A stretch of DNA of 21,198 nt, taken from Candidatus Eiseniibacteriota bacterium (GTDB taxonomy: Bacteria; JAFGKV01). Below are positions 1-13,885 of the stretch, piece by piece. Below the pieces are notes generated by a model. The model made no database searches and had not been told where the DNA came from. It worked only from the letters and a program-made list of their open reading frames with translations. Every line of letters begins with the position of its first letter. The stretch's first letter is position 1. The stretch spans positions 1-21,198 of the forward strand of contig JALOPK010000014.1 of assembly GCA_025453925.1 (NCBI GenBank), in the 5' to 3' direction. The position numbers and the translations under genes are program-made.

Positions 1-2343
1 AGCCGCCTCATTCTCGGTGACAGCTCCTACGCGGCGTCCCAGTGGATCTTCGACACCTATGCGTCCTGGGGGTATGAGGCCCGATTCGACAGCTTCTACA
101 TCCCCGAGGCGGTCATGGGAGATTGGCCGGGCATCGGCTGGGAGCGCAACGTGATCGCCCCCAAGGAGGGCACCAGCGGCGCCGACGCGCGGCTGGTGAT
201 CGGTGGACACTTCGACTCCATCGTCTGGTCGGACACCGCCGTGGCCCGCATCGACGCGCCGGGCGCCGATGACAATGCCACGGGCATCGCGGGCGCCATG
301 GAAGCCGCGCGGGTGCTGCGGGACTTCCCCATGGAGAAGGACGTGGACTTCGCGGGGTGGGGAGCCGAGGAAATCGGCCTCATCGGCAGTGTGGTCTATG
401 CCTTCACAGCCGATCAGCAGGGCGATGCCATCGAGGGCATGATCAACATGGACATGATCGGCTACATGGACGATTCACGGCTGGACTGCATCATCCAGTA
501 CGCGGCCTCTCCGGCGCTCTGGTTCGCCGAGCTCTACCGCCAGGCGTCCCAGACCTACGTGCCGTCTCTCACTGTCACGCCGACCATCGCATCAGGCGGA
601 TCCGACTGGTATCCGTTCGCGTATGTGGGCTACCCGGCGGTAGGTGCGGCCGAACAGGACCGCACGAACTTCAACCCGCACTACCATGACCCGTCGGATC
701 GCATTGAGACGTTGACTCCTGAGCTCTACACCGCGATCACCAAGGCGTCCCTGGCGACGCTCGTGATTCTCGGGGTGTGCCCCGGCCCGGTGCTCGACGT
801 GCGCGCCCAGGATATGGGCGACGGCGAGACTGTCCTGGTGCAGTGGTCGCCCAGCGGCGAGCCTGACATTGCCGGGTACTGGGCGTGGTGGGGCGTCACG
901 AGCCAGACGTACACCGACTCGGCCCTGATCAGCGGTGCGGCCAGTGCGTCATATCTCCTGAGCGGCCTCACGGCAGACACGCCGTACTACTTCGTCGTCC
1001 GGGCCATGGATACCGAGGGGCACCAGAGCTACCGCGCCACCGAGGTCGTCACCGTACCGCGGGAAGTGCCCCAGGCCCCTTCGGGCGTAGCGGCGACCCC
1101 GATTGCAGGCGGCATTCGGATCGACTGGTTCCCGAACGGGGAGGCCGACATCGCGGGATACCGGGTGCATCGGCGCATCAACGCCGGTGACTATGACCTC
1201 CTGGCCGATCTCCTCCCTGACACCAGCTTCGTCGATCCCGGTCTCTCCGGTGCAAACCAGTACTACTACCGCGTGGAGGCCGTGGATGGCGCCGGTCACG
1301 TCAGTGCCCCCAGCGATAATGCGTATGGACGACCCATGACCCTGGACCAGGGCATTCTGGTCGTGGACGAGACCCGCAACTACACCAGCCCCCCGGACAG
1401 CGTCCAGGATGCCTTCTATCGCGCCGCCCTGGAAGGATTCAGGTTTACCGAGTTCGAGTATGGATCGCCGGCCGAAGCGCCCGTGCTCTCCGATTTCGCC
1501 CCCTACTCTACGGTACTCTGGCATGCCGACGACTTCGCCCAGTTCCTCGCGGCCGGCCACGTGCCCGAACTTGAGGCCTATCTCGACGCGGGCGGCAACC
1601 TGTGGTTCACGGGGTGGAAGGCAACGGCGGATCTGAGCGGATCCTCCACCTATCCAATGACCTTCGAGGCCGGGTCGTTCATGTATGACTACATGGGCGT
1701 GGAACGGGTAGAGCTGTCAGGCATGGCCGACTCGCTGGTCGGAGTCACGGGGGAAGGCGGCTATCCCGACCTGACGGTTGACCCCGCGGCCATTCCCACC
1801 CCCGCGTGGGGGTCGACGCTCCGATACGTGGAGTCATGGACTCCAGTCCCATCTGCGGAGGTGGTCTACCGGGCGGACATGACGGACGACGGCAGCGCCT
1901 TCGACGGAGCCGTATGTGGTGTCCGAAGGCTGAACGACAGCCCTCGGGTCGTGTTCTTCGGCTTCCCGCTGTCCTTCATGGAGCCTGACGGAGCCCGGCA
2001 AGTCGCCCGGATCGTGCTTGCCGCCCTGGGCGAACCCCTGGAGGCCGACGACTCGCCGGTGATCGTAGCGACCCTCCAGGTCGAAGCATCGCCCAATCCC
2101 TTCCGCGGTACCACGACCATCTCCTTCGTCATCCCCGAGGCAGGGGCGGTCCAGGTCAGACTCTTCGACATGGCCGGCCACTTGGTGGTCACGCTCGTGG
2201 ATGAACGGGTGGCCGCAGGCAGCCATGTGGTAACCTGGGACGGCACCGACGCGGCGGGCAGTCCCGTGGGAAGCGGCGCCTACCTGTGCCGGTTTGAGGC
2301 GCCGGGAGGTCAATCGATCCGAAGGCTTCTCCTGGTTCGCTGA
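1..2343 (+). CDS. Secreted M28 zinc aminopeptidase with FnIII repeats and FlgD-like C-terminal domain (5' partial)
   Basis: The reading frame is open from base 1, so the start and any signal peptide lie outside the window; 780 residues are visible. The M28 metallopeptidase core occupies about visible residues 60-250. The family's co-catalytic zinc ligands and catalytic acid are all present: H70 (GGHFDS), D91 (GADDNATG), the E123-E124 pair (WGAEEIG), D151 (INMDMIGY) and H229 (HYHDPSD). Two fibronectin type III repeats follow at about 260-355 and 358-450, then an unassigned alpha/beta region at about 455-690. The end is a FlgD-type Ig/sorting domain at about 695-780, with SPNPFRGTTTISF, RLFDMAGHLV and GSGAYLCRF. 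The protein probably removes N-terminal amino acids from peptides outside the cell or at its surface. C-terminal domains of this kind are common on secreted proteins of FCB-type bacteria. A hairpin with a T-rich tail lies just after the stop. Confidence 0.9.
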   Translation, partial: SRLILGDSSYAASQWIFDTYASWGYEARFDSFYIPEAVMGDWPGIGWERNVIAPKEGTSGADARLVIGGHFDSIVWSDTAVARIDAPGADDNATGIAGAMEAARVLRDFPMEKDVDFAGWGAEEIGLIGSVVYAFTADQQGDAIEGMINMDMIGYMDDSRLDCIIQYAASPALWFAELYRQASQTYVPSLTVTPTIASGGSDWYPFAYVGYPAVGAAEQDRTNFNPHYHDPSDRIETLTPELYTAITKASLATLVILGVCPGPVLDVRAQDMGDGETVLVQWSPSGEPDIAGYWAWWGVTSQTYTDSALISGAASASYLLSGLTADTPYYFVVRAMDTEGHQSYRATEVVTVPREVPQAPSGVAATPIAGGIRIDWFPNGEADIAGYRVHRRINAGDYDLLADLLPDTSFVDPGLSGANQYYYRVEAVDGAGHVSAPSDNAYGRPMTLDQGILVVDETRNYTSPPDSVQDAFYRAALEGFRFTEFEYGSPAEAPVLSDFAPYSTVLWHADDFAQFLAAGHVPELEAYLDAGGNLWFTGWKATADLSGSSTYPMTFEAGSFMYDYMGVERVELSGMADSLVGVTGEGGYPDLTVDPAAIPTPAWGSTLRYVESWTPVPSAEVVYRADMTDDGSAFDGAVCGVRRLNDSPRVVFFGFPLSFMEPDGARQVARIVLAALGEPLEADDSPVIVATLQVEASPNPFRGTTTISFVIPEAGAVQVRLFDMAGHLVVTLVDERVAAGSHVVTWDGTDAAGSPVGSGAYLCRFEAPGGQSIRRLLLVR

Positions 2344-2355
2344 TCGTGCCCTCGA

Positions 2356-2399
2356 CGGCGCAGCCGCGGAGCTTGACCCCTCGGCTGCGCCGGTGTTTT
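2356..2399 (+). terminator. Probable rho-independent terminator after the M28 peptidase gene
   Basis: An 11-bp perfect stem (CGGCGCAGCCG at 2356-2366 with its complement at 2382-2392) encloses a 15-base loop and is followed by GTGTTTT. It lies 12 bases after the peptidase stop and before the ribosome site of the next gene. The T tract is short, so termination may be partial. Confidence 0.6.
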
Positions 2400-2441
2400 G
2401 TGCCGCTCGACATCCCTCCCTTTCATCCCCGCCCCCGACAT

Positions 2442-2446
2442 GGAGG
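2442..2446 (+). promoter_or_regulatory. Ribosome binding site fixing the start of the M23 gene
   Basis: GGAGG lies 7 bases before the ATG at 2454. It selects that ATG over the in-frame GTG at 2346, which lies before the terminator hairpin and would put unrelated residues ahead of a good lipoprotein signal. Confidence 0.75.
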
Positions 2447-2453
2447 AACCCCC

Positions 2454-3830
2454 ATGCCGTGGATCACGCGTCGCGCCCTCCGGCTTTGCTGTGACACCGC
2501 ACTCCTGGCGATGCTGAGCGGCTCGCTGGCATGCATCGTGATCCTGACCGGATGCACCGCGAAGCCGGACCCGCAGCCGCTCCGTGACCGGGACCTCGCG
2601 CTCTATCTGGCGCGGCTCATCGATGAGCACACGGTACACCGCATCGTTGCTGACACGCTGCGCACCGGCGACACCCTGCTCCGGCGCCTGGTGGCCCGGG
2701 GCCTTCCACACCGCGCCTCCCTGGAGATGGTCGAAGCCTCCCGCGGCGTTGACTACCTCGCGCGGTCGTACCCCGGGGAGACATACGAGGTCAGACTGGA
2801 TGGGGAAGGAAACCCCTCGGAACTACGCTATCGCAGGAATGACGGCCGCGTGGTAGTCATCGAGGACAGCGGGGGATCCTTCAGCAGCCGGGTGGAAGTG
2901 CCCGAAGTCACCACGGTGGTGCGCGCGGCGACGGGAGTGGTCGAGCAGTCGCTCTACCAGGCGTTCACGGACTGCGGGCTCTCCCCGGAACTCGTACTCC
3001 AGTTCGCCGATGTCTTTGCGTGGACCTTCGATTTCCTCACGGAGTGCCGTGTCGGCGACGAGTTCGGCCTCGTGTTCTCCGAACGCGACAATCCCCCGCG
3101 GGTGACGCTGCTCGGCGCGTCATATCGCCAGGCCGCCCGGCAGCTTGTGGCCGTCGGCGTGCAGAACCCGGACGGAGGGCTGGAGTACTTCGCTCCTGAC
3201 GGGTCATCTCTCCACGCCTCGTTTCTCCGCTCACCCCTCAACTACCGGCGCATCACCTCCGGCTTCTCCTTCGGCCGTCTCCACCCGGTGTTCAAGGTGC
3301 GTCGGCCCCACCTCGGCGTGGATTATGCCGCACCCGCCGGCACGCCGGTGGTGGCGGTGGCGGATGGCGCGATTGCCTTCGCCGGCCGGAAGGGCGGATT
3401 CGGGAACTACGTCGAGATCAAGCACGCGGGCGGATGTGTCACGACGTACGGTCACCTGCGCGGAATGGCCAAGGGCGTCACGCGCGGCAGCCGCGTGGAA
3501 CAAGGCCAGGTTATCGGATACGTCGGCGCCACGGGCGTCGCCACCGGTCCACACCTTGACTACCGTGTCATCGTGCAGGGTCGCCACGTGAACCCTCTCA
3601 GATTCGAACCTCCGCGCGGGCCTGCATTGGACCAGAGCCGGCTGCCCGAGCTTCGCCTGCGCACGTTGCTGGTCGAGAGCGCGCTGGCCCACGCTGACTC
3701 CAGCGTGATCGCCGCCGTCGGTGTCCCGGCGCAGCTTCTGTGCGCCGAGGCATGCCCGGATACCGCAGGGGTGCCGTCCCTGCCGGAATTCAACCACTCC
3801 CACCGAGACCTGGTCCGCGCGAACTTCTGA
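2454..3830 (+). CDS. MepM/YebA-like M23 peptidoglycan endopeptidase lipoprotein
   Basis: The 458-residue protein begins with a lipoprotein signal: basic residues, a hydrophobic stretch, and lipobox LTGC with C34 as the probable lipidated cysteine. Residues about 60-260 resemble the OapA/Csd3-type N-terminal region of MepM-like proteins. The M23 (LytM) domain covers about 270-380, with H286 and D290 (HLGVD), H334 (YGHL) and H367. The usual HLH motif reads HLD here (TGPHLDYRV), so D369 replaces the third zinc ligand; aspartate can bind zinc, and the rest of the site is intact. The family cleaves peptide cross-links in murein to allow wall growth, so this one is probably periplasmic and anchored by its lipid. 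The upstream hairpin suggests it has its own promoter, but I could not pick one out. Confidence 0.88.
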   Translation: MPWITRRALRLCCDTALLAMLSGSLACIVILTGCTAKPDPQPLRDRDLALYLARLIDEHTVHRIVADTLRTGDTLLRRLVARGLPHRASLEMVEASRGVDYLARSYPGETYEVRLDGEGNPSELRYRRNDGRVVVIEDSGGSFSSRVEVPEVTTVVRAATGVVEQSLYQAFTDCGLSPELVLQFADVFAWTFDFLTECRVGDEFGLVFSERDNPPRVTLLGASYRQAARQLVAVGVQNPDGGLEYFAPDGSSLHASFLRSPLNYRRITSGFSFGRLHPVFKVRRPHLGVDYAAPAGTPVVAVADGAIAFAGRKGGFGNYVEIKHAGGCVTTYGHLRGMAKGVTRGSRVEQGQVIGYVGATGVATGPHLDYRVIVQGRHVNPLRFEPPRGPALDQSRLPELRLRTLLVESALAHADSSVIAAVGVPAQLLCAEACPDTAGVPSLPEFNHSHRDLVRANF

Positions 3831-3872: not shown

Positions 3873-4022
3873 GTTGCCTGGAGACCGGTCGAATATGAGA
3901 TTATGACGGTGTCCTGTATCTTGATAATCGACCTGATCCACCTCCGCTCCCTGTGCACGCCTCCCGCATGTCCCTGACATGCGCCCCCGTGCGAAGCGGT
4001 CATCCCTGCCGGGTTGTGCCCC

Positions 4023-5927
4023 ATGAACGCCGTCGACAACGGAATCAAGCTCGAGATCGAGGCGAAGTTCGCCATTCCCGGCGAGCAGGTCCTGCGGCGG
4101 CTTCGGGCGGTGCCGACCCTGGCAGGGATGCGTCTGGGCCGGGCCGCGACTGTTGTCGTCATCGACACCTATCTTGATACCGAGACCGGTGCCGTCTCGG
4201 CCGGTAGCTACGCCTGGCGACGACGGGCACAGGGAGGCCGGATCACTACCACCCTGAAGCGCCTGATGCCCGCCGCCGATGGGGTTCACCGGAGGGAAGA
4301 GCTCGAGGTCGAGGCCGATGGCCATCCTTCCACCTGGCCCGAGGGGGTTACCCGAGACTGCGCCCTTCGCCTGGTGGGTGATGCGCCGCTCCTCCCCCTG
4401 GCGACAGTTTCGCAGCAGCGCTCGGTGCGGACGATTCGCTCCGGCCCGCGTCTCGTGGCGATGCTGAGCCTGGATACCGTGAACGCCCAATCAGGGAATC
4501 GCGTCGAGATGTACCGGCAAGCTGAAGTCGAATTGGCAAAAGACGGCACGGATGATGATATGGCCGCACTGGTTGCCGTTCTAAGAGATGAATGGAAACT
4601 TCCGGCGGAAACCCGATCGAAACTCGAACGGGCCGTGGCGCTTCTGCCTGTTGCGTTTCTCGACGACGGCGAACGCGCGGCATGTCGGATGCTGGCGGCA
4701 CGGAACGACCTCCACGGCCGCCGCGCCAGGGCCCTGCTCGCGATGGACGCCGGCGAGACCCAGGCTGCCGCCGGGCGGGCGGCGGGCATGTCGGAGCGCA
4801 GAGTGCGGTATTGGCGCGGGGCGTTTCGAACCAGGCGGCTCCAGGTCTTCCCGCGCCGCCTCCTCCCGTCTGAATCCTCCGTCCTGCCCCCCCGCCCCGC
4901 ACGCCACGCCGTCTTGCCCGCGCTCGCGTCGGACGCGGTGAGACTGACCCCGGCAACGCCCATGGCGGAGGCCGCCTGCCGCACGCTGGCCCGGCAGTTC
5001 AGCCGCATGCTTTCCCATGAACCCGGCACCCGTGCCGGCGAGGATCCCGAGGAGCTCCACGACATGCGCGTTGCCACTCGCCGGATGCGCGCCGCGCTTG
5101 ATATCTTCGCCGGCGCGTTGGAACCCTCCCGCGTGAGGCCCGTTCGCAAAGGTCTCCGCCGCGTGGGGCGCGCGCTGGGCGCGGTGCGCGATCTCGATGT
5201 GTTCTGGCTGAAGACGGCGCGCTATCTTGACGACTTGCCGCCTGACCGCAGCGGCGAGCTCGAACCGCTCCGGGCGGCCTGGTCGGCCGAACGGGAAGCG
5301 GCGCGGCAACGCTTGCTCGATCATCTGGACGGGCCGCGGCACGCACGATTTCTCGCCGCGTGCGAGGAGTTCCTGCAGAGGCCGGACATGTCGGCCCGCC
5401 CGCCTTGGGCTCCCGACGGATCTCCTGTTCCTCGTCGCGTCGGCCACGTGCTCCCCGCCATTGTCTATGCCCGGGTGGCCGCGGTGCGGGCGTTCGACGA
5501 GTGGGTCGGCGACTCCGGCGTGCCCCTGCCGCGCCTGCACCGTTTGCGCATCGCCGCCAAGGCCCTGCGGTACACTATCGAGTTTTTCCAGGAGTTGCTC
5601 GGCCCCGAGGCCGCTTCCGTGGTCGATGAGATGAAGGACCTGCAGGATCACCTGGGCGAACTCCAGGACACGGTAGTCGCCATGACCGTGCTCCGGGATT
5701 TCCTTACCTGGGGCACGTGGCGCCACGAGGAGGATGCGCGAGTGCCGCCGGACCCCGTACTTGCCCCGGGCGTCGCCACGTATCTGGCGGTGCGGCAGCG
5801 TGAGCTTGCCGCGCTGCTGGAAACCTTCACGAAGCGCTGGCGCGAGATTCAAAGATCCGATTTCGTCGCCCGCATCGCCGCAGCCTTAGCCTTTGTCGAA
5901 CGAGGAGAACCGGATGCCGCGGTCTAA
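4023..5927 (+). CDS. CYTH-HTH-CHAD domain protein (polyphosphate-associated)
   Basis: The 634-residue protein has three parts. The CYTH domain (about 8-205) carries the family signature ExExK as E11, E13 and K15, followed by basic/acidic tunnel strands (YAWRRRAQ, TTTLKRL, REELEVEAD). CYTH enzymes act on triphosphate-bearing substrates, including inorganic triphosphate. A basic homeodomain-like helix-turn-helix segment (about 212-275; AAGMSERRVRYWRGAF) comes next. The CHAD domain (about 312-600) has the conserved histidine and basic helices (LHDMRVATRRMRAALD, RVGRALGAVRDLDVF, HRLRIAAKALRYTIEFF). CHAD domains are known polyphosphate-binding helical bundles. The ATG at 4023 was chosen over a TTG at 4014; neither has a clear ribosome site. 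The stop overlaps ppk by 14 bases, so the two are probably coupled. Likely roles are tripolyphosphate hydrolysis with polyphosphate docking; whether the HTH binds DNA is unknown. Confidence 0.9.
   Translation: MNAVDNGIKLEIEAKFAIPGEQVLRRLRAVPTLAGMRLGRAATVVVIDTYLDTETGAVSAGSYAWRRRAQGGRITTTLKRLMPAADGVHRREELEVEADGHPSTWPEGVTRDCALRLVGDAPLLPLATVSQQRSVRTIRSGPRLVAMLSLDTVNAQSGNRVEMYRQAEVELAKDGTDDDMAALVAVLRDEWKLPAETRSKLERAVALLPVAFLDDGERAACRMLAARNDLHGRRARALLAMDAGETQAAAGRAAGMSERRVRYWRGAFRTRRLQVFPRRLLPSESSVLPPRPARHAVLPALASDAVRLTPATPMAEAACRTLARQFSRMLSHEPGTRAGEDPEELHDMRVATRRMRAALDIFAGALEPSRVRPVRKGLRRVGRALGAVRDLDVFWLKTARYLDDLPPDRSGELEPLRAAWSAEREAARQRLLDHLDGPRHARFLAACEEFLQRPDMSARPPWAPDGSPVPRRVGHVLPAIVYARVAAVRAFDEWVGDSGVPLPRLHRLRIAAKALRYTIEFFQELLGPEAASVVDEMKDLQDHLGELQDTVVAMTVLRDFLTWGTWRHEEDARVPPDPVLAPGVATYLAVRQRELAALLETFTKRWREIQRSDFVARIAAALAFVERGEPDAAV
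5902..5907 (+). promoter_or_regulatory. Ribosome binding site of ppk inside the CHAD gene
   Basis: GAGGAG ends 6 bases before the ATG at 5914 and lies within the last codons of the upstream gene. It supports the ATG over the in-frame TTG at 5893 and means ppk translation is probably coupled to that of the CYTH-CHAD gene. Confidence 0.75.
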
Positions 5928-8112
5928 GCGTCGGGCTACCACTCGCCACGCCGGTGCGAAGGAGAAAGGGCCATCGACTGCCCCGCTGCGGGCCCGCATT
6001 CCCGGCCCTCTGCCGGATCTCGATGACCCGAACCTCTACATCAACCGCGAGTTGAGCTGGCTCCAGTTCAACCACCGCGTGCTGGAGGAATCCCTTGACG
6101 CGCGTCACCCGCTGCTGGAGCGGGTGAAGTTCCTCGCGATCTTCGCCAACAATCTGGACGAGTTCTTCATGATCCGTGTGGCGGGTCTGCGATGGCAGCT
6201 TGCGGCGGGGACGCAGGAACGATCCTCGGACGGCATGACGCCGGAGCAGCAGCTCGCGGCCATCCGCCGGGAGGTGCTGCCGGAGGTCGCAACGGCCACT
6301 GAACACTGGCACGCCACGCTCCTGCCGCTGCTCAGGGAGACCGGCATCCGTATCCTCGACTACTCGGATCTGAAGCGCAATCAGCGGCGCCTGCTGCGGG
6401 AGTACTTCGAGCGGGAGCTGTTCCCCGCGCTGACGCCCCTGGCCTTCGACCCGGGCCACCCGTTCCCCCATATCTCCAACCTGAGCATGAACCTGGCCGT
6501 GGTCGTCCGTGATCCGCGGGAGGGGGAGCGGTTCGCCCGGATCAAGGTGCCCGACACGTTCCCCAGGCTCCTGCGTATTCCCAGCGAGGAGGCCTCCGCG
6601 GGATACGGCAGCCTGGGAGTGGCCCGGGCCGCCTCCAACCGTTTCGTCTGGACCGAGCAGGTGGTGGCGGCAAATCTCGACATGCTGTTCCCGGGGCTGG
6701 AGGTCGCGGCGGCCCACCCGTTTCGGGTCACCCGTGACGCCGACCTGGAAATCGAGGAGGACGAGGCGGCCGATCTGCTGGCGGCGGTGGAGCATGGCGT
6801 CGGGATGCGCCACTTCGGTTCGCCCGTCCGCCTGGAGGTGGACGGCGGGACCCCGGATCGCATCCGCGACATTCTTTCGTTGAACCTCGGCCTCGCGCCG
6901 TACCAGGTCTACGCGATGCCCGCCCCCATGGGTCTGGCGGACCTGATGCAGCTTGCGTCCATCGACCGGCCCGACCTGAAGGACGCGCCGTTCGTGGCTT
7001 CGACGCCGCCGGCGCTCCAGTCGGACCCGTTCGCCGCCATCCGGCATGGCCCGGTGTTCCTGTACCATCCGTACGACAGTTTTGCTCCGGTGGTCGATTT
7101 CCTCAATGTCGCCGCCCGCGATCCGTCGGTCATCGCGATCAAACAGGTACTCTACCGGGTTGGCAAGAACTCGCCGGTCGTCGCGGCATTGATGGAGGCC
7201 AGGGACCAGGGCAAGCAAGTGGCGGTTCTGGTGGAGCTGAAGGCGCGGTTCGACGAGGAGCACAACATCGAATGGGCCCGGGCCTTGGAGCATGCGGGCA
7301 TCCACGTGGTCTACGGCCTGGTGGGGCTCAAGACCCACGCCAAGCTGTGCCTGGTGGTACGGCGGGAAGCAGACGGAATCGTGCGGTACGTGCACCTGGG
7401 CACTGGAAACTACAACGAGTCCACCGCCCGCGTCTACAGCGACATGGGGTACTTCACCAGCGACCCGGATGTGGGCGCTGACGCATCGGACCTGTTCAAC
7501 GCCCTCACGGGCTATTCAAGGAACGATACCTACCGCACGTTGATCGTCGCGCCCGGCCGCATGCGCGACGAGATCATCACCAGGATCGACCGGGAGCGTG
7601 AACGGCATATGGCTTATGGCGATGGCCGCATCGCGTTCAAGCTGAACGGTTTGGTCGACAAGGAGTGCATTCAGGCCCTGTACCGTGCATCCCACGCGGG
7701 TGTGCCGATTGACCTGCAGGTCCGCAGCATCTGCTGCCTGCGGCCCGGCGTCCCCGGCGTCAGCGACACCATCCGGGTCACGTCGGTGGTGGGACGGTTC
7801 CTGGAGCATGCGAGGATCTTCTACTTCCATAACGGCGGCGACGAGGAGGTCCTGCTGGGCAGCGCCGACCTCATGCCTCGGAATCTCTATCGTCGTGTCG
7901 AAGTGGTGTTTCCGGTGCGAGACGCCCACCTGAAGACGCGGATACGCGAGATCCTGGAGGTGCATCTGGGGGATACCGCTCAGGCCCGGCGTCTCATGCC
8001 GGACGGCGCCTACGAACGATGCCAGCCCCCGTCCGGCGAGGCGCCGTCGGACTCGCAGGCGTGGATGGTCGCCCATCGCGGCTCCTGGCACCAGGGGACG
8101 GGATCTCCGTGA
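5914..8112 (+). CDS. ppk: Polyphosphate kinase 1
   Basis: The 732-residue protein matches Ppk1 end to end. It has the N-terminal motif YINRELSWLQFNHRVLEE, the helix FLAIFANNLDEFFMIRVAGL, and both phospholipase-D-like catalytic halves. H475 (KTHAKL) corresponds to the phosphorylated histidine of E. coli (H435). H632 (LEHARIF) corresponds to H592, with exactly the same 157-residue spacing. Other conserved stretches are GTGNYNESTARVYSDMGYF, LNGLVDKECI and GSADLMPRNLYRRVE. The enzyme reversibly moves the gamma-phosphate of ATP onto inorganic polyphosphate. It overlaps the CYTH-CHAD gene upstream by 14 bases and the HD-fusion gene downstream by 4 bases (GTGA), the arrangement expected for a polyphosphate operon. 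A 21-residue acidic/serine tail past the core is not conserved. Confidence 0.97.
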   Translation: MPRSKRRATTRHAGAKEKGPSTAPLRARIPGPLPDLDDPNLYINRELSWLQFNHRVLEESLDARHPLLERVKFLAIFANNLDEFFMIRVAGLRWQLAAGTQERSSDGMTPEQQLAAIRREVLPEVATATEHWHATLLPLLRETGIRILDYSDLKRNQRRLLREYFERELFPALTPLAFDPGHPFPHISNLSMNLAVVVRDPREGERFARIKVPDTFPRLLRIPSEEASAGYGSLGVARAASNRFVWTEQVVAANLDMLFPGLEVAAAHPFRVTRDADLEIEEDEAADLLAAVEHGVGMRHFGSPVRLEVDGGTPDRIRDILSLNLGLAPYQVYAMPAPMGLADLMQLASIDRPDLKDAPFVASTPPALQSDPFAAIRHGPVFLYHPYDSFAPVVDFLNVAARDPSVIAIKQVLYRVGKNSPVVAALMEARDQGKQVAVLVELKARFDEEHNIEWARALEHAGIHVVYGLVGLKTHAKLCLVVRREADGIVRYVHLGTGNYNESTARVYSDMGYFTSDPDVGADASDLFNALTGYSRNDTYRTLIVAPGRMRDEIITRIDRERERHMAYGDGRIAFKLNGLVDKECIQALYRASHAGVPIDLQVRSICCLRPGVPGVSDTIRVTSVVGRFLEHARIFYFHNGGDEEVLLGSADLMPRNLYRRVEVVFPVRDAHLKTRIREILEVHLGDTAQARRLMPDGAYERCQPPSGEAPSDSQAWMVAHRGSWHQGTGSP

Positions 8113-9440
8113 GGATCGCCATTCTGGGCGCTGTCAGGGCGAACCTTCCCGCGCTGGAGGCAGTGCTCGCAGACGCTTCCTCCCACAAGGTGGATGCCGT
8201 CTGGACCGTGGGCGATTTCGCAGGCTACGGGCCGTTTCCGGGGGAGGTCATTGACCTTCTGCGGGAGATGCGCGCGCTGTGCGTCTTAGGCAGCGATGAA
8301 CTGCTGCTGCTCAAGCTGCATCAGATGCACGAGTCGGCCCACCGGACGATGCAGCAGGAATTCGCGCCGCTGCGGCATGCGCACGCCCACCTGAGCGAAG
8401 AGCACCATCGCTTCCTCCTCGAGGCACCCCGGCAGATCGAACTCGCCATTGCCGGCGTGCGCGTGCTGGTGGTCAACGGCTCCTCGACGGTGTGGCCTTC
8501 CCACAAGACGACACTGGAGCACCTGCGTATTCTCGCCGACGAATCACATGCCCAGGTCGTGGTGTATGGCCATGGCCATGAGGCCCGTACCCACCGCATC
8601 GGCGGCATCGCATTCGTCAACCCGGGCAGCGTAGGCCAGTCCCACGACGGCGACCCCCGGGCAACCTATGGGATTCTGACGGTCACCCCGCGCGTGGTGC
8701 GGACCAGATTCATCCGCGTCTGCTACCCGGTGGAAGCCGCTGTCGCCGCCATCGGTGAGCGGGGCCTGCCCCCCTCCTTCGCCACCGCATTGCTCCAGGG
8801 CGCTCTCCCGGACCTCCCCACTGCCGAGGCTCCCCCCCAGGTTCCCGAGGAGGAAAGCGACCCGCGTGTCCGGGCGGTGCTGGAACTGGCCCGCTCCTGC
8901 GAGTATGAAGCGGAACATACCCACCAGGTCACACGATTGGCCATCAAACTATTCGACGATCTTGCCGGCCTACACGGACTCGGCGTGGGTGATCGTTTCC
9001 TTCTTCGGTGCGCGGCCCTGCTTCATGACATCGGCTGGGTCGAGGGCCAGCAGGCGCATCACAAGGCAGCGCTTCGGATCATCCTCAATTCCCCGCTGCT
9101 TCCGTTTGGCGAACGTGAGCGCCTCATCATCGGCTCAGTGGCGAGGTATCACCGCAAGGCGCTGCCGGCAGCGACCCACGAGCACTACACCGTGCTGACC
9201 GAGGCGGACCGGCGCCTCGTGGGCATGATGGCGGGCATCCTCCGCGTCGCCGACGGGCTCGACCGTACCCACCGCAGTCTCGTGGATGACTTCACCTGCA
9301 GCGTCTCTCCGAAGAAGATCATCATCAAGTGTCTGGTGCACTGGCCGGCCGAGATGGAACGCCAGGCAGCCCTGGACAAGGGCCAGCTCCTGGAGTCGGC
9401 GTTGGGCAGGCACCTGGCTATCGAATGGCGTCTTGCGTGA
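8109..9440 (+). CDS. Degenerate calcineurin-like phosphoesterase fused to a Ppx/GppA-type HD domain
   Basis: The start is the GTG at 8109, whose last two bases begin the ppk stop; the 443-residue product then begins VRIAILGAVRANLPALEAV. Residues 1-200 follow the YfcE/MJ0936-type metallophosphoesterase fold, but several metal sites are lost. Motif I DxH reads A8-V9-R10, the GNHD motif reads G61-S-D-E, and the HGS ligand reads N123-G-S. G35-D36, GYGP and G154-H-G-H157 remain, as does the typical NPGSVGQ...DGDPRATYGIL end. Residues about 255-443 form an HD domain like the C-terminal domain of exopolyphosphatase/GppA. It carries H270, H306-D307, H317, H348 and D382, with ARYHRKALP and RVADGLDRTH. 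The phosphoesterase half is probably regulatory or ligand-binding, and the HD half may hydrolyse a polyphosphate or nucleotide phosphoester. That function is inferred from domain kinship and coupling to ppk. Confidence 0.85.
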   Translation: MRIAILGAVRANLPALEAVLADASSHKVDAVWTVGDFAGYGPFPGEVIDLLREMRALCVLGSDELLLLKLHQMHESAHRTMQQEFAPLRHAHAHLSEEHHRFLLEAPRQIELAIAGVRVLVVNGSSTVWPSHKTTLEHLRILADESHAQVVVYGHGHEARTHRIGGIAFVNPGSVGQSHDGDPRATYGILTVTPRVVRTRFIRVCYPVEAAVAAIGERGLPPSFATALLQGALPDLPTAEAPPQVPEEESDPRVRAVLELARSCEYEAEHTHQVTRLAIKLFDDLAGLHGLGVGDRFLLRCAALLHDIGWVEGQQAHHKAALRIILNSPLLPFGERERLIIGSVARYHRKALPAATHEHYTVLTEADRRLVGMMAGILRVADGLDRTHRSLVDDFTCSVSPKKIIIKCLVHWPAEMERQAALDKGQLLESALGRHLAIEWRLA

Positions 9441-9510: not shown

Positions 9511-10212
9511 TTGCGAACATGTTGTGTGGTGGTCGTCCTCGTCGCTCTGGCCTTTGGCCTCGCGTGCAGCAAAGCTGCCCCCCGTAAGACCAGCCTTGCC
9601 ACGGATGCCGAACGGTTCAGTTATGCGCTGGGCCTGGATATCGGCGCCAACCTCAAGAACATCGAGACCGAGGTCGATCTTCCGACCCTCATCCAGGGCA
9701 TGCAGGACACTCTGGGCGGCCAAGCATCCCTCATGACGCAGGAGGCGGCGGGAGAAGTGCGCCAGCAGTTTGCCACAAAGTTCCGTGAGGCGCAGGCCGC
9801 CAAGGCGCGGGAAGCCGGCGAGCGAAACCGTGCCGAAGGCGCGGCGTTCCTGGAACAGAACAAGACCAAAGAGGGCGTCATCACCACGGCCAGCGGCTTG
9901 CAGTACGTGATAATGACCGAGGGGACCGGGCCGAAGCCTGCGGCGGCGAACCAGGTCAAGGTCCACTACCGTGGCACGCTCATCGACGGCACCGAGTTCG
10001 ATAGCTCCTACAGCCGCGGGGAACCGGTGGTATTCGGCGTGGGCGGGGTCATCCCCGGCTGGGTGGAAGCGCTGCAACTCATGCCCGTGGGGAGCAAGTA
10101 CAAGCTGTTCATCCCGCCCCAGCTTGCCTATGGCGAGCGGGGAGCCGGCGCCCAGATCGGGCCCAACAGCGTACTCATCTTCGAGGTGGAGCTACTGGGC
10201 ATAGAGAACTAG
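9511..10212 (+). CDS. FKBP-type peptidyl-prolyl isomerase lipoprotein (FkpA/Mip-like)
   Basis: The 233-residue protein begins at a TTG. It has a short valine/leucine-rich signal peptide ending in lipobox GLAC, with C19 the probable lipidated cysteine. Residues about 35-135 are the helical FKBP_N dimerisation region seen in FkpA and Mip (AERFSYALGLDIGANL, then a charged coil rich in A, E, R and K). The FKBP catalytic domain is at about 145-233, with VHYRGTLIDGTEFDSSYSRG, GVIPGWVEALQLMPVG, LAYGERGAG and LIFEVELLGIEN. It should speed cis-trans proline isomerisation and act as a chaperone for exported proteins at the membrane. It follows the HD-fusion gene by 70 bases on the same strand and may be a distal member of the operon or separately expressed. 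Confidence 0.93.
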   Translation: MRTCCVVVVLVALAFGLACSKAAPRKTSLATDAERFSYALGLDIGANLKNIETEVDLPTLIQGMQDTLGGQASLMTQEAAGEVRQQFATKFREAQAAKAREAGERNRAEGAAFLEQNKTKEGVITTASGLQYVIMTEGTGPKPAAANQVKVHYRGTLIDGTEFDSSYSRGEPVVFGVGGVIPGWVEALQLMPVGSKYKLFIPPQLAYGERGAGAQIGPNSVLIFEVELLGIEN

Positions 10213-13175: not shown

Positions 13176-13454
13176 ATGCCTGAGATGCTTGCGGTGACCG
13201 AGGTCGTTCGCCACTTCGCAGACTACCTGAATCGAGTCGCGTATCGCCGCGAGTCGTTCGTGCTCGTTCGTGGAAAGAGGCCTATCGCGGAACTCCGCCC
13301 CGTTCCGCTCGGCAGGAAACTGACCGACCTGCCCGGCCTATTCGCCTCGGTCCCTCGCCTGACTCCTCACGAGGCAGATGAGTTTGCCGCCGATTTGGTG
13401 AAGGCGCGGATTGAGCTCTCCCACGTGGAGGTCAGTAATCCGTGGCGGTCCTGA
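13176..13454 (+). CDS. Phd/YefM-family antitoxin of a VapBC-type pair
   Basis: The 92-residue protein has the Phd/YefM layout. The N-terminal DNA-binding part (about 1-50; LAVTEVVRHFADYLNRVAY, then SFVLVRGKRPIAELRPV) should dimerise and bind the operator. The C-terminal tail (about 55-92; LTPHEADEFAADLVKARIEL) should wrap around and block the toxin. It precedes a PIN toxin gene with a 13-base overlap, the normal order for coordinated synthesis with the antitoxin first. Autoregulation is likely through the palindrome over the promoter. VapB-type antitoxins with other folds exist, but this sequence fits Phd/YefM better than AbrB or RHH. Confidence 0.85.
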   Translation: MPEMLAVTEVVRHFADYLNRVAYRRESFVLVRGKRPIAELRPVPLGRKLTDLPGLFASVPRLTPHEADEFAADLVKARIELSHVEVSNPWRS

Positions 13455-13885
13455 TTGACGCCAGCGTACTCATCGAGGCTGAGCGCGGCAGGCTCCGCAT
13501 CGAGCGCCACGCGGCGCGGCAACCGGACGCTGAGTGCTTCCTTTCCGTCATCACGGCCAGCGAGTTGCTGCACGGGGTGTACAGAGCCACTGACCCGCGC
13601 CAGCGCGCCAGGCGTTCCGCCTTTGTTGAAGGTGTTTTGGAGCGATTTCCCTTGCTGCAGGTCGATCTGGCCACGGCGCGCGCCCACGCACAGGTGTGGG
13701 CGACCCTCGCAGCCGGCGGCACACTCGTTGGCGCACATGACATGTGGCTTGCGGCCACCTGCATCGCACATGGGCTGACCATGGTTACCGCGAATGTCCG
13801 CGAGTTTGAACGAGTCCCCGGGTTGCGGGTCGAGACGTGGAGCGACGCCGAGGAGAACCTGGAGTCAGGGGCAATGCCCAGCTGA
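13442..13885 (+). CDS. vapC: PIN-domain ribonuclease toxin, VapC family
   Basis: The 147-residue protein starts at a GTG inside the antitoxin gene. It carries the PIN acidic residues D6 (VLIDASVLI), E41 (ITASELLHG) and D100 (VGAHDMWLAATC), with N118 in the fourth conserved position (MVTANVREFERVPGL). VapC toxins are magnesium-dependent endoribonucleases that cut tRNA or rRNA and stop growth when the antitoxin is degraded. All expected residues are present, so it is probably active. A short hairpin (CAGCTC 13903-13908 with GAGCTG 13917-13922) lies after the stop but lacks a T run. The pair sits next to transposase and gene debris, consistent with acquisition by transfer. Confidence 0.9.
   Translation: MAVLIDASVLIEAERGRLRIERHAARQPDAECFLSVITASELLHGVYRATDPRQRARRSAFVEGVLERFPLLQVDLATARAHAQVWATLAAGGTLVGAHDMWLAATCIAHGLTMVTANVREFERVPGLRVETWSDAEENLESGAMPS

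Follow-up and report, generated by a model that had tools for sequence, protein, structure and literature searches.

The protein encoded at positions 8109..9440 (+ strand) of the window, as the whole analysed stretch of 21,198 nucleotides from Candidatus Eiseniibacteriota is called here, is a fusion of a calcineurin-like phosphoesterase (MPE) with an HD domain related to that of exopolyphosphatase (Ppx). The MPE-HD fusion is present in at least four bacterial lineages. All 20 fusions found are located in ppk/CHAD clusters, in which ppk encodes polyphosphate kinase (PPK). The MPE half has lost metal ligands in the window genus only, and the window protein may be a regulator of PPK or of polyphosphate (polyP).

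The gene encodes 443 residues from a GTG start codon, at the same point where its homologues begin, and its reading frame contains no frameshift or stop. Its first four nucleotides, GTGA (8109..8112, + strand), overlap the stop codon of ppk, which indicates probable translational coupling. The N-terminal half (residues 1-232, 8109..8804, + strand) matches Metallophos_2 (PF12850) at residues 2-193 (E 6e-18, 65.7 bits, cut-off 27) and aligns with 17 intact homologues and the intact fusions. Its closest solved relative is the metallophosphoesterase 3rqz (1.5e-21), and its TIGR00040 score of 49.3 bits is under the cut-off of 56.25. A linker (residues 233-250, 8805..8858, + strand) connects it to the C-terminal half (residues 251-443, 8859..9437, + strand), which is of the Ppx/GppA domain III type according to Pfam, structural relatives, and alignments. 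Ppx-GppA_III (PF21447) matches residues 253-402 (E 1e-15, 58.2 bits, cut-off 27.3), and a generic HD profile also matches this half (E 1e-6). The closest solved relative of the HD half is the Deinococcus exopolyphosphatase 8jgo (3e-25), and GppA appears only among the weaker matches. The ASKHA domain (PF02541) has no Pfam match in the fusion protein. An AlphaFold2 model calculated from a two-sequence alignment was unusable (mean predicted local distance difference test score 38, predicted template modelling score 0.24). The original prediction of a phosphoesterase-HD fusion overlapping ppk by GTGA is confirmed by the open reading frame (ORF), Pfam, and the sequence, and the residues that it named are found as given (A8-V9-R10, G61-S-D-E64, N123, G154-H-G-H157, H270, H306, D307, and D382).

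A fusion 70% identical to that of the window is encoded in an independent metagenome-assembled genome of the same genus (locus L008, JAFGKV010000042.1, labelled Candidatus Fermentibacteria), referred to below as the sister. The HD halves of the two proteins are 79% identical, and the stretch of residues 216-250, with 40% identity, is less similar than either half. Because the sister has the same operon and carries the changes D8->G, H10->R, and N62->R, the ligand losses in the MPE of the window are not sequencing errors.

The domain order was searched for in other genomes, as the original prediction had proposed, in a sample of 386 genomes; re-sampling around another centre gave largely the same genomes. 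The GTDB phylum of the window is represented by three genomes in the data examined, and the phylum of genome G261, taken as Synergistota, by 185. The search yielded two fusions in the window genus, one each in G135 and G319, which represent two further candidate lineages, and 16 among the 185 Synergistota genomes. The fusion of G319 is split across contigs: what had been taken for separate HD-only and MPE-only genes was re-read as one fusion at two contig ends, and the HD ORF, at the end of its contig, starts within the tail of the MPE (AGIRKNKLPEEF). An apparent triple fusion, CHAD-MPE-HD, in G495 has an N at the joint, probably reflects a frameshift, and was discarded; no CHAD fusion was confirmed. 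The fused MPE halves form one clade relative to standalone MPEs (99/98), which is consistent with a single fusion event followed by transfer and loss. Where relatives of the MPE half stand alone, neither ppk nor CHAD is a neighbour (11 loci examined). The window protein combines all the characteristics of the family: MPE and HD in one ORF, the motif HDIGW-x-x-G, ppk/CHAD linkage, and an MPE half within the fused clade.

The arrangement of the clusters differs among the lineages. The order in Synergistota is ppk-CHAD-(MPE-HD)-ppx, with ppx adjoining the fusion in 15 of the 16 cases, and most of these fusions have a 4-nucleotide overlap with CHAD instead of ppk. The order is CHAD-(MPE-HD)-ppx-ppk in G135 and ppk-CHAD-(MPE-HD) in G319. 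The same operon slot is filled by an HD-only gene in G261, G608, G656, and G506, and is empty in, for example, G596, G598, and G593. The gene of G506 (L113:7191-7943) has undergone an in-frame excision of the MPE that left the first strand, MKIAFVSDIH, and the MPE tail in front of the HD domain. Since HD-only genes occupy the same slot, MPE-HD has a constant component, the HD half, and an optional one, the MPE; it is probably the HD half that does the work.

The coupling to ppk, originally proposed for this locus, is general for the family. Besides the linkage of every fusion, all 18 strong Synergistota matches (16 fusions and the HD-only genes of G506 and G608) are in ppk-positive genomes, and ppk is present in 61 of the 185 genomes (hypergeometric 3e-10, ignoring kinship). 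The co-occurrence also holds within genera: ppk and the fusion are both present in G493, G495, and G496 and both absent from G492 and G494 of one genus, and the same is true of G507-G509 versus G510 and of G515 versus G511-G514. The sister genus G002 and a congener of G319 (G187) are without ppk and without the fusion. Homologues with intact phosphoesterase motifs and no ppk linkage had been named as a case against the original prediction; intact homologues do exist, yet all of them are ppk-linked.

The HD half contains the complete ligand pattern of the HD superfamily, H...HD...H...H...D. The ligands, placed by alignment, are H270 (8916-8918), H306-D307 (9024-9029), H317 (9057-9059), H348 (9150-9152), and D382 (9252-9254), all on the + strand. 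H317 and H348 complete the set, and together with the PF21447 match the ligands support the earlier description of a Ppx/GppA-like HD domain with all core ligands. The five ligand positions are intact in all 20 fusions. The fused HDs are distinguished by the signature W310-x-x-G313 just after the HD motif (W310 in 16 of 17 fused HDs, G313 in 17 of 17, each of them in none of 39 Ppx HDs) and by D382, which is present in 17 of 17 fused HDs versus 17 of 39 Ppx HDs. A tree of 60 HD sequences puts four HD-only proteins with the fused HDs, apart from all Ppx HDs and eight other HD-only proteins (98/83). Grouping of the fused HD with unrelated HD families, which had been considered a possible objection, is thus not seen; nor does this HD fall within the Ppx HDs proper, and this assignment is corrected: the fused HD is a clade beside, not within, the HDs of Ppx domain III. 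The fusions alone do not form a single HD clade because HD-only members are interspersed among them, and an approximately unbiased test of the first four fused HDs by themselves did not establish them as one clade (p 0.17).

The N-terminal half of the window protein lacks the complete two-metal site of the family (DxH, GD, the Asn of GNxD, the His of HxS, and GHxH). The seven metal-ligand columns, which are invariant among the 17 intact homologues wherever the sequence covers them, read A8, R10, D36, S62, N123, H155, and H157 in the window. According to the alignment, four of the seven ligands have been lost, at A8 (8130-8132), R10 (8136-8138), S62 (8292-8294), and N123 (8475-8477), all on the + strand, and D36, H155, and H157 remain. 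The columns of the sister read G8, R10, N36, R62, H123, H155, and P157, with two ligands retained and five lost. Three losses are common to both species; N123 is an additional loss of the window, and N36 and P157 are additional losses of the sister. Only one of the seven ligand columns is retained in both species, compared to 28 of 40 other near-invariant columns (one-sided Fisher p 0.009). The other 18 of the 20 fusions have complete MPE ligands. The degeneracy of the phosphoesterase half reported in the original prediction therefore applies to the window genus, and the family as a whole is not degenerate by design. The ligand at position 62 is missing as reported, but GNHD was the wrong yardstick, because the nearest intact relatives read GNYD or GNFD, which is normal for the family. 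The identity of the MPE halves minus that of the HD halves is −7 to −9 percentage points in the window genus and −1 to +11 in all other fusions, and the MPE is clearly the faster-diverging half in the window genus only. The pattern of ligand loss suggests that the MPE of the window genus is enzymatically dead.

In most cases the fusion gene accompanies ppx as an additional gene. A simple substitution for ppx is not supported, since nearly all Synergistota operons carry both genes and the window genome encodes an intact short Ppx. The single Ppx-GppA gene of the window genome is located on another contig and encodes a 312-residue form that lacks an HD domain and has two intact P-loops. The earlier remark that a Ppx actin-like domain is absent is thus correct for the window, but the domain is present elsewhere in the genome. 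The fusion gene is the sole PF21447 match in the window genome. The Ppx-GppA domain was not detected in G319 (87% complete), which has ppk and the fusion, and Ppx was not detected in G370 (95% complete), which has ppk and CHAD-HD, with HD only.

The window protein is tentatively interpreted as regulating PPK or polyP, with a probability that falls slightly short of even; this interpretation is favoured over a polyphosphatase or an alarmone hydrolase because the HD is constant and the MPE optional, and because a pairing known from Lacticaseibacillus is mirrored in the window genome. The titles of two studies cited in PMC6537752, Alvarado 2006 and Saito 2005, tie the C-terminal half of Ppx to processivity. 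Processivity is also credited to this half in PMC12248826, according to which Ppx1 of Lacticaseibacillus paracasei, with a degenerate ASKHA half and an HD domain, is encoded beside ppk1 and is required for polyP synthesis, and the short Ppx2 of Lacticaseibacillus has exopolyphosphatase activity. By this interpretation, MPE-HD would be an ancient accessory family of polyphosphate operons with a patchy distribution, and its HD domain may use its metal centre to bind polyP, or a polyP/PPK/CHAD complex, and may tune polyP turnover beside PPK. In most members, an N-terminal MPE with a complete two-metal site would supply the hydrolase, and the whole would resemble a Ppx in which the actin-like catalytic half has been swapped for a different catalytic fold. 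In the window genus, the MPE half, retained under purifying selection without its metal site, may provide a scaffold or bind a partner, and hydrolysis may be left to the short Ppx encoded elsewhere and to the CYTH-CHAD protein. Several points weigh against this interpretation. The HD half of the window protein has no strong net positive charge (isoelectric point 8.4, charge +1.7), and that of several relatives is acidic, so polyP binding, if it occurs, would have to be local or to depend on the metal. The full set of HD ligands suggests catalysis more than mere binding. The Lacticaseibacillus precedent is an analogy, with a different N-terminal half and a mechanism that is itself only proposed.

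Catalysis by the HD domain is the basis of the closest alternative, which is possible but rather unlikely: the HD may itself be a polyphosphatase that depends on metal and replaces Ppx in a non-classical way, and an intact MPE would add a second polyphosphatase activity, for example of the endo type. Every fusion has the full HD ligands, whereas the HD of E. coli Ppx has lost some of them (the first two motifs of 1u6z are 'seqarrv' and 'llheVG'), and G319 and G370 have no detectable Ppx-GppA domain. Endopolyphosphatases with a calcineurin fold are known, namely PPN1 and PPN2 of yeast. Both enzymes are named in PMC6537752. However, Ppx accompanies the fusion in most Synergistota operons and in the window genome, the G319 genome is incomplete, and no polyP-cutting HD domain was found in the literature searched. 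Less probable still is a role of the HD as hydrolase of a signalling nucleotide (ppGpp/pppGpp, Ap4A, or a cyclic nucleotide) that would tie the synthesis of polyP to stress signals. The weaker matches of the HD half include GppA, and the MPE relative 3qfm is an Ap4A hydrolase. Ppx domain III also resembles the HD domain of SpoT (PMC12248826). The nearest solved relative is, however, an exopolyphosphatase and not GppA, and the neighbourhood is polyP-specific, although the related loci were searched for polyP markers only and a linked alarmone gene could be missed.

Two further explanations start from the condition of the MPE in the window genus, where this half is under purifying selection. The ratio of nonsynonymous to synonymous substitution rates (dN/dS) between the window and the sister is about 0.16 for the MPE, 0.105 for the HD, 0.127 for PPK, 0.15 for the neighbouring FKBP gene, and 0.19 for the M23 gene; the figures are rough because dS is near saturation, which also detracts from the regulatory interpretation. 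It is very improbable that this half is still an enzyme with a remodelled metal site. The retention of D36, H155, H157, and the N-P-G-S-V-G loop and the purifying selection would agree with such an enzyme, but at least two ligands are gone at each metal site, the additional species-specific losses are as expected under relaxed constraint on the site, and the ligand columns are retained far less often than other near-invariant columns. That the fusion is a decaying relic without present function is the least probable explanation and is largely refuted: ligand loss and the faster evolution of one half would fit it, but the frame is intact, the dN/dS values of the two halves bracket that of PPK, the operon position is common to both species, and their HD halves are 79% identical.

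Around the fusion gene, the window and the sister locus have five genes identical in kind and order (M23, CYTH-CHAD, ppk, fusion, and FKBP), all on the + strand of the window. PPK, a polyphosphate kinase 1, is listed at 5893..8112 (739 residues; four PP_kinase Pfam domains and TIGR03705), and comparison with L008 points to the ATG at 5914 as its probable true start. The gene before it, which overlaps the ppk ORF as listed, encodes a CYTH(TTM)-CHAD protein (4014..5927; CHAD E 1e-57 in Pfam). CYTH is assigned from an ExExK-like sequence motif, EIEAK, with no Pfam match. Residues 236-274 of this protein, between its two domains, resemble the helix-turn-helix HTH_28 (Pfam E 1.2e-5, just above the cut-off), and a similar stretch is present in the sister. 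The flanking genes, identified by Pfam and conserved in the sister, encode an M23 peptidase (2346..3830) upstream and an FKBP-type prolyl isomerase (9514..10212) downstream. Farther away, at 13176-13885, a small ORF overlaps a PIN-domain gene (PF01850, E 8.6e-15), an arrangement resembling a VapBC toxin-antitoxin pair.

Additional Ppx variants were observed. The short Ppx of the window genome overlaps a 194-residue ORF by GTGA (L001:857-1441 and 1438-2376, contig C116 of G000); the ORF appears CYTH-like by eye, without a Pfam match, and the two genes are possibly a second phosphate-linked pair. G135 (L037:9834-11393) and G272 (L051:1474-3030) have a ppk-adjacent full-length Ppx that lacks P-loop 2 and retains most HD ligands, and both also carry a separate intact short Ppx, the pattern seen with pseudo-Ppx1 of Lactobacillaceae. 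G113 contains tandem full-length Ppx genes (L013:541-2061 and 2061-3557), the second of which has lost P-loop 2 (FANISSGN), has an intact HD motif, and is a candidate pseudo-Ppx.

MPE-HD can be compared to several known systems. It shares with full-length Ppx/GppA, consisting of domains I-IV (8jgo, E. coli 1u6z), the C-terminal HD (PF21447), the ppk linkage, and the layout of a catalytic half followed by an HD. However, the N-terminal half of MPE-HD is calcineurin-like and not ASKHA, and its HD belongs to a separate clade with W-x-x-G and an invariant D382. Lactobacillaceae Ppx1, a pseudo-Ppx proposed to activate Ppk1 (PMC12248826), is likewise ppk-adjacent, combines a degenerate N-terminal half with an HD, and is accompanied by a separate short active-type Ppx, but its dead half is ASKHA, whereas that of the window protein is a metallophosphoesterase. 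YfcE/SapH-like MPEs (3rqz, 3qfm, TIGR00040) have the fold and motifs of the N-terminal half, which are intact in 18 of the 20 fusions, but they are standalone, lack an HD, and are not ppk-linked at the loci examined. The CHAD and CYTH-CHAD polyP-binding proteins (phosins, ygiF) are constant operon neighbours of MPE-HD with an unrelated fold. No description of the MPE-HD fusion was found in the literature searched, which covered few subscription journals, in agreement with the earlier note. Both domains and the polyP operon are already known; the combination, its distribution, and the pseudoenzyme branch are new.

Bacterial polyP degradation is usually explained by Ppx. MPE-HD could be an undescribed, widespread polyP-metabolising family born from the joining of a calcineurin-fold phosphoesterase with the Ppx-type HD module, a second independent Ppx-like architecture that is the sole actor in genomes without Ppx and a pseudoenzyme regulator of PPK in the window genus, although this combined proposal is doubtful as a whole. 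A recurrent third partner of ppk-CHAD-ppx operons, found fused or HD-only in two ppk-positive genomes without detectable Ppx, would be a component that has been missing from the picture of polyP control. Dead catalytic halves on an HD module beside ppk recur in Lactobacillaceae Ppx1, in the Ppx of G135 and G272, and in the MPE of the window, and this recurrence makes the control of Ppk1 by HD-bearing pseudoenzymes a directly testable question.

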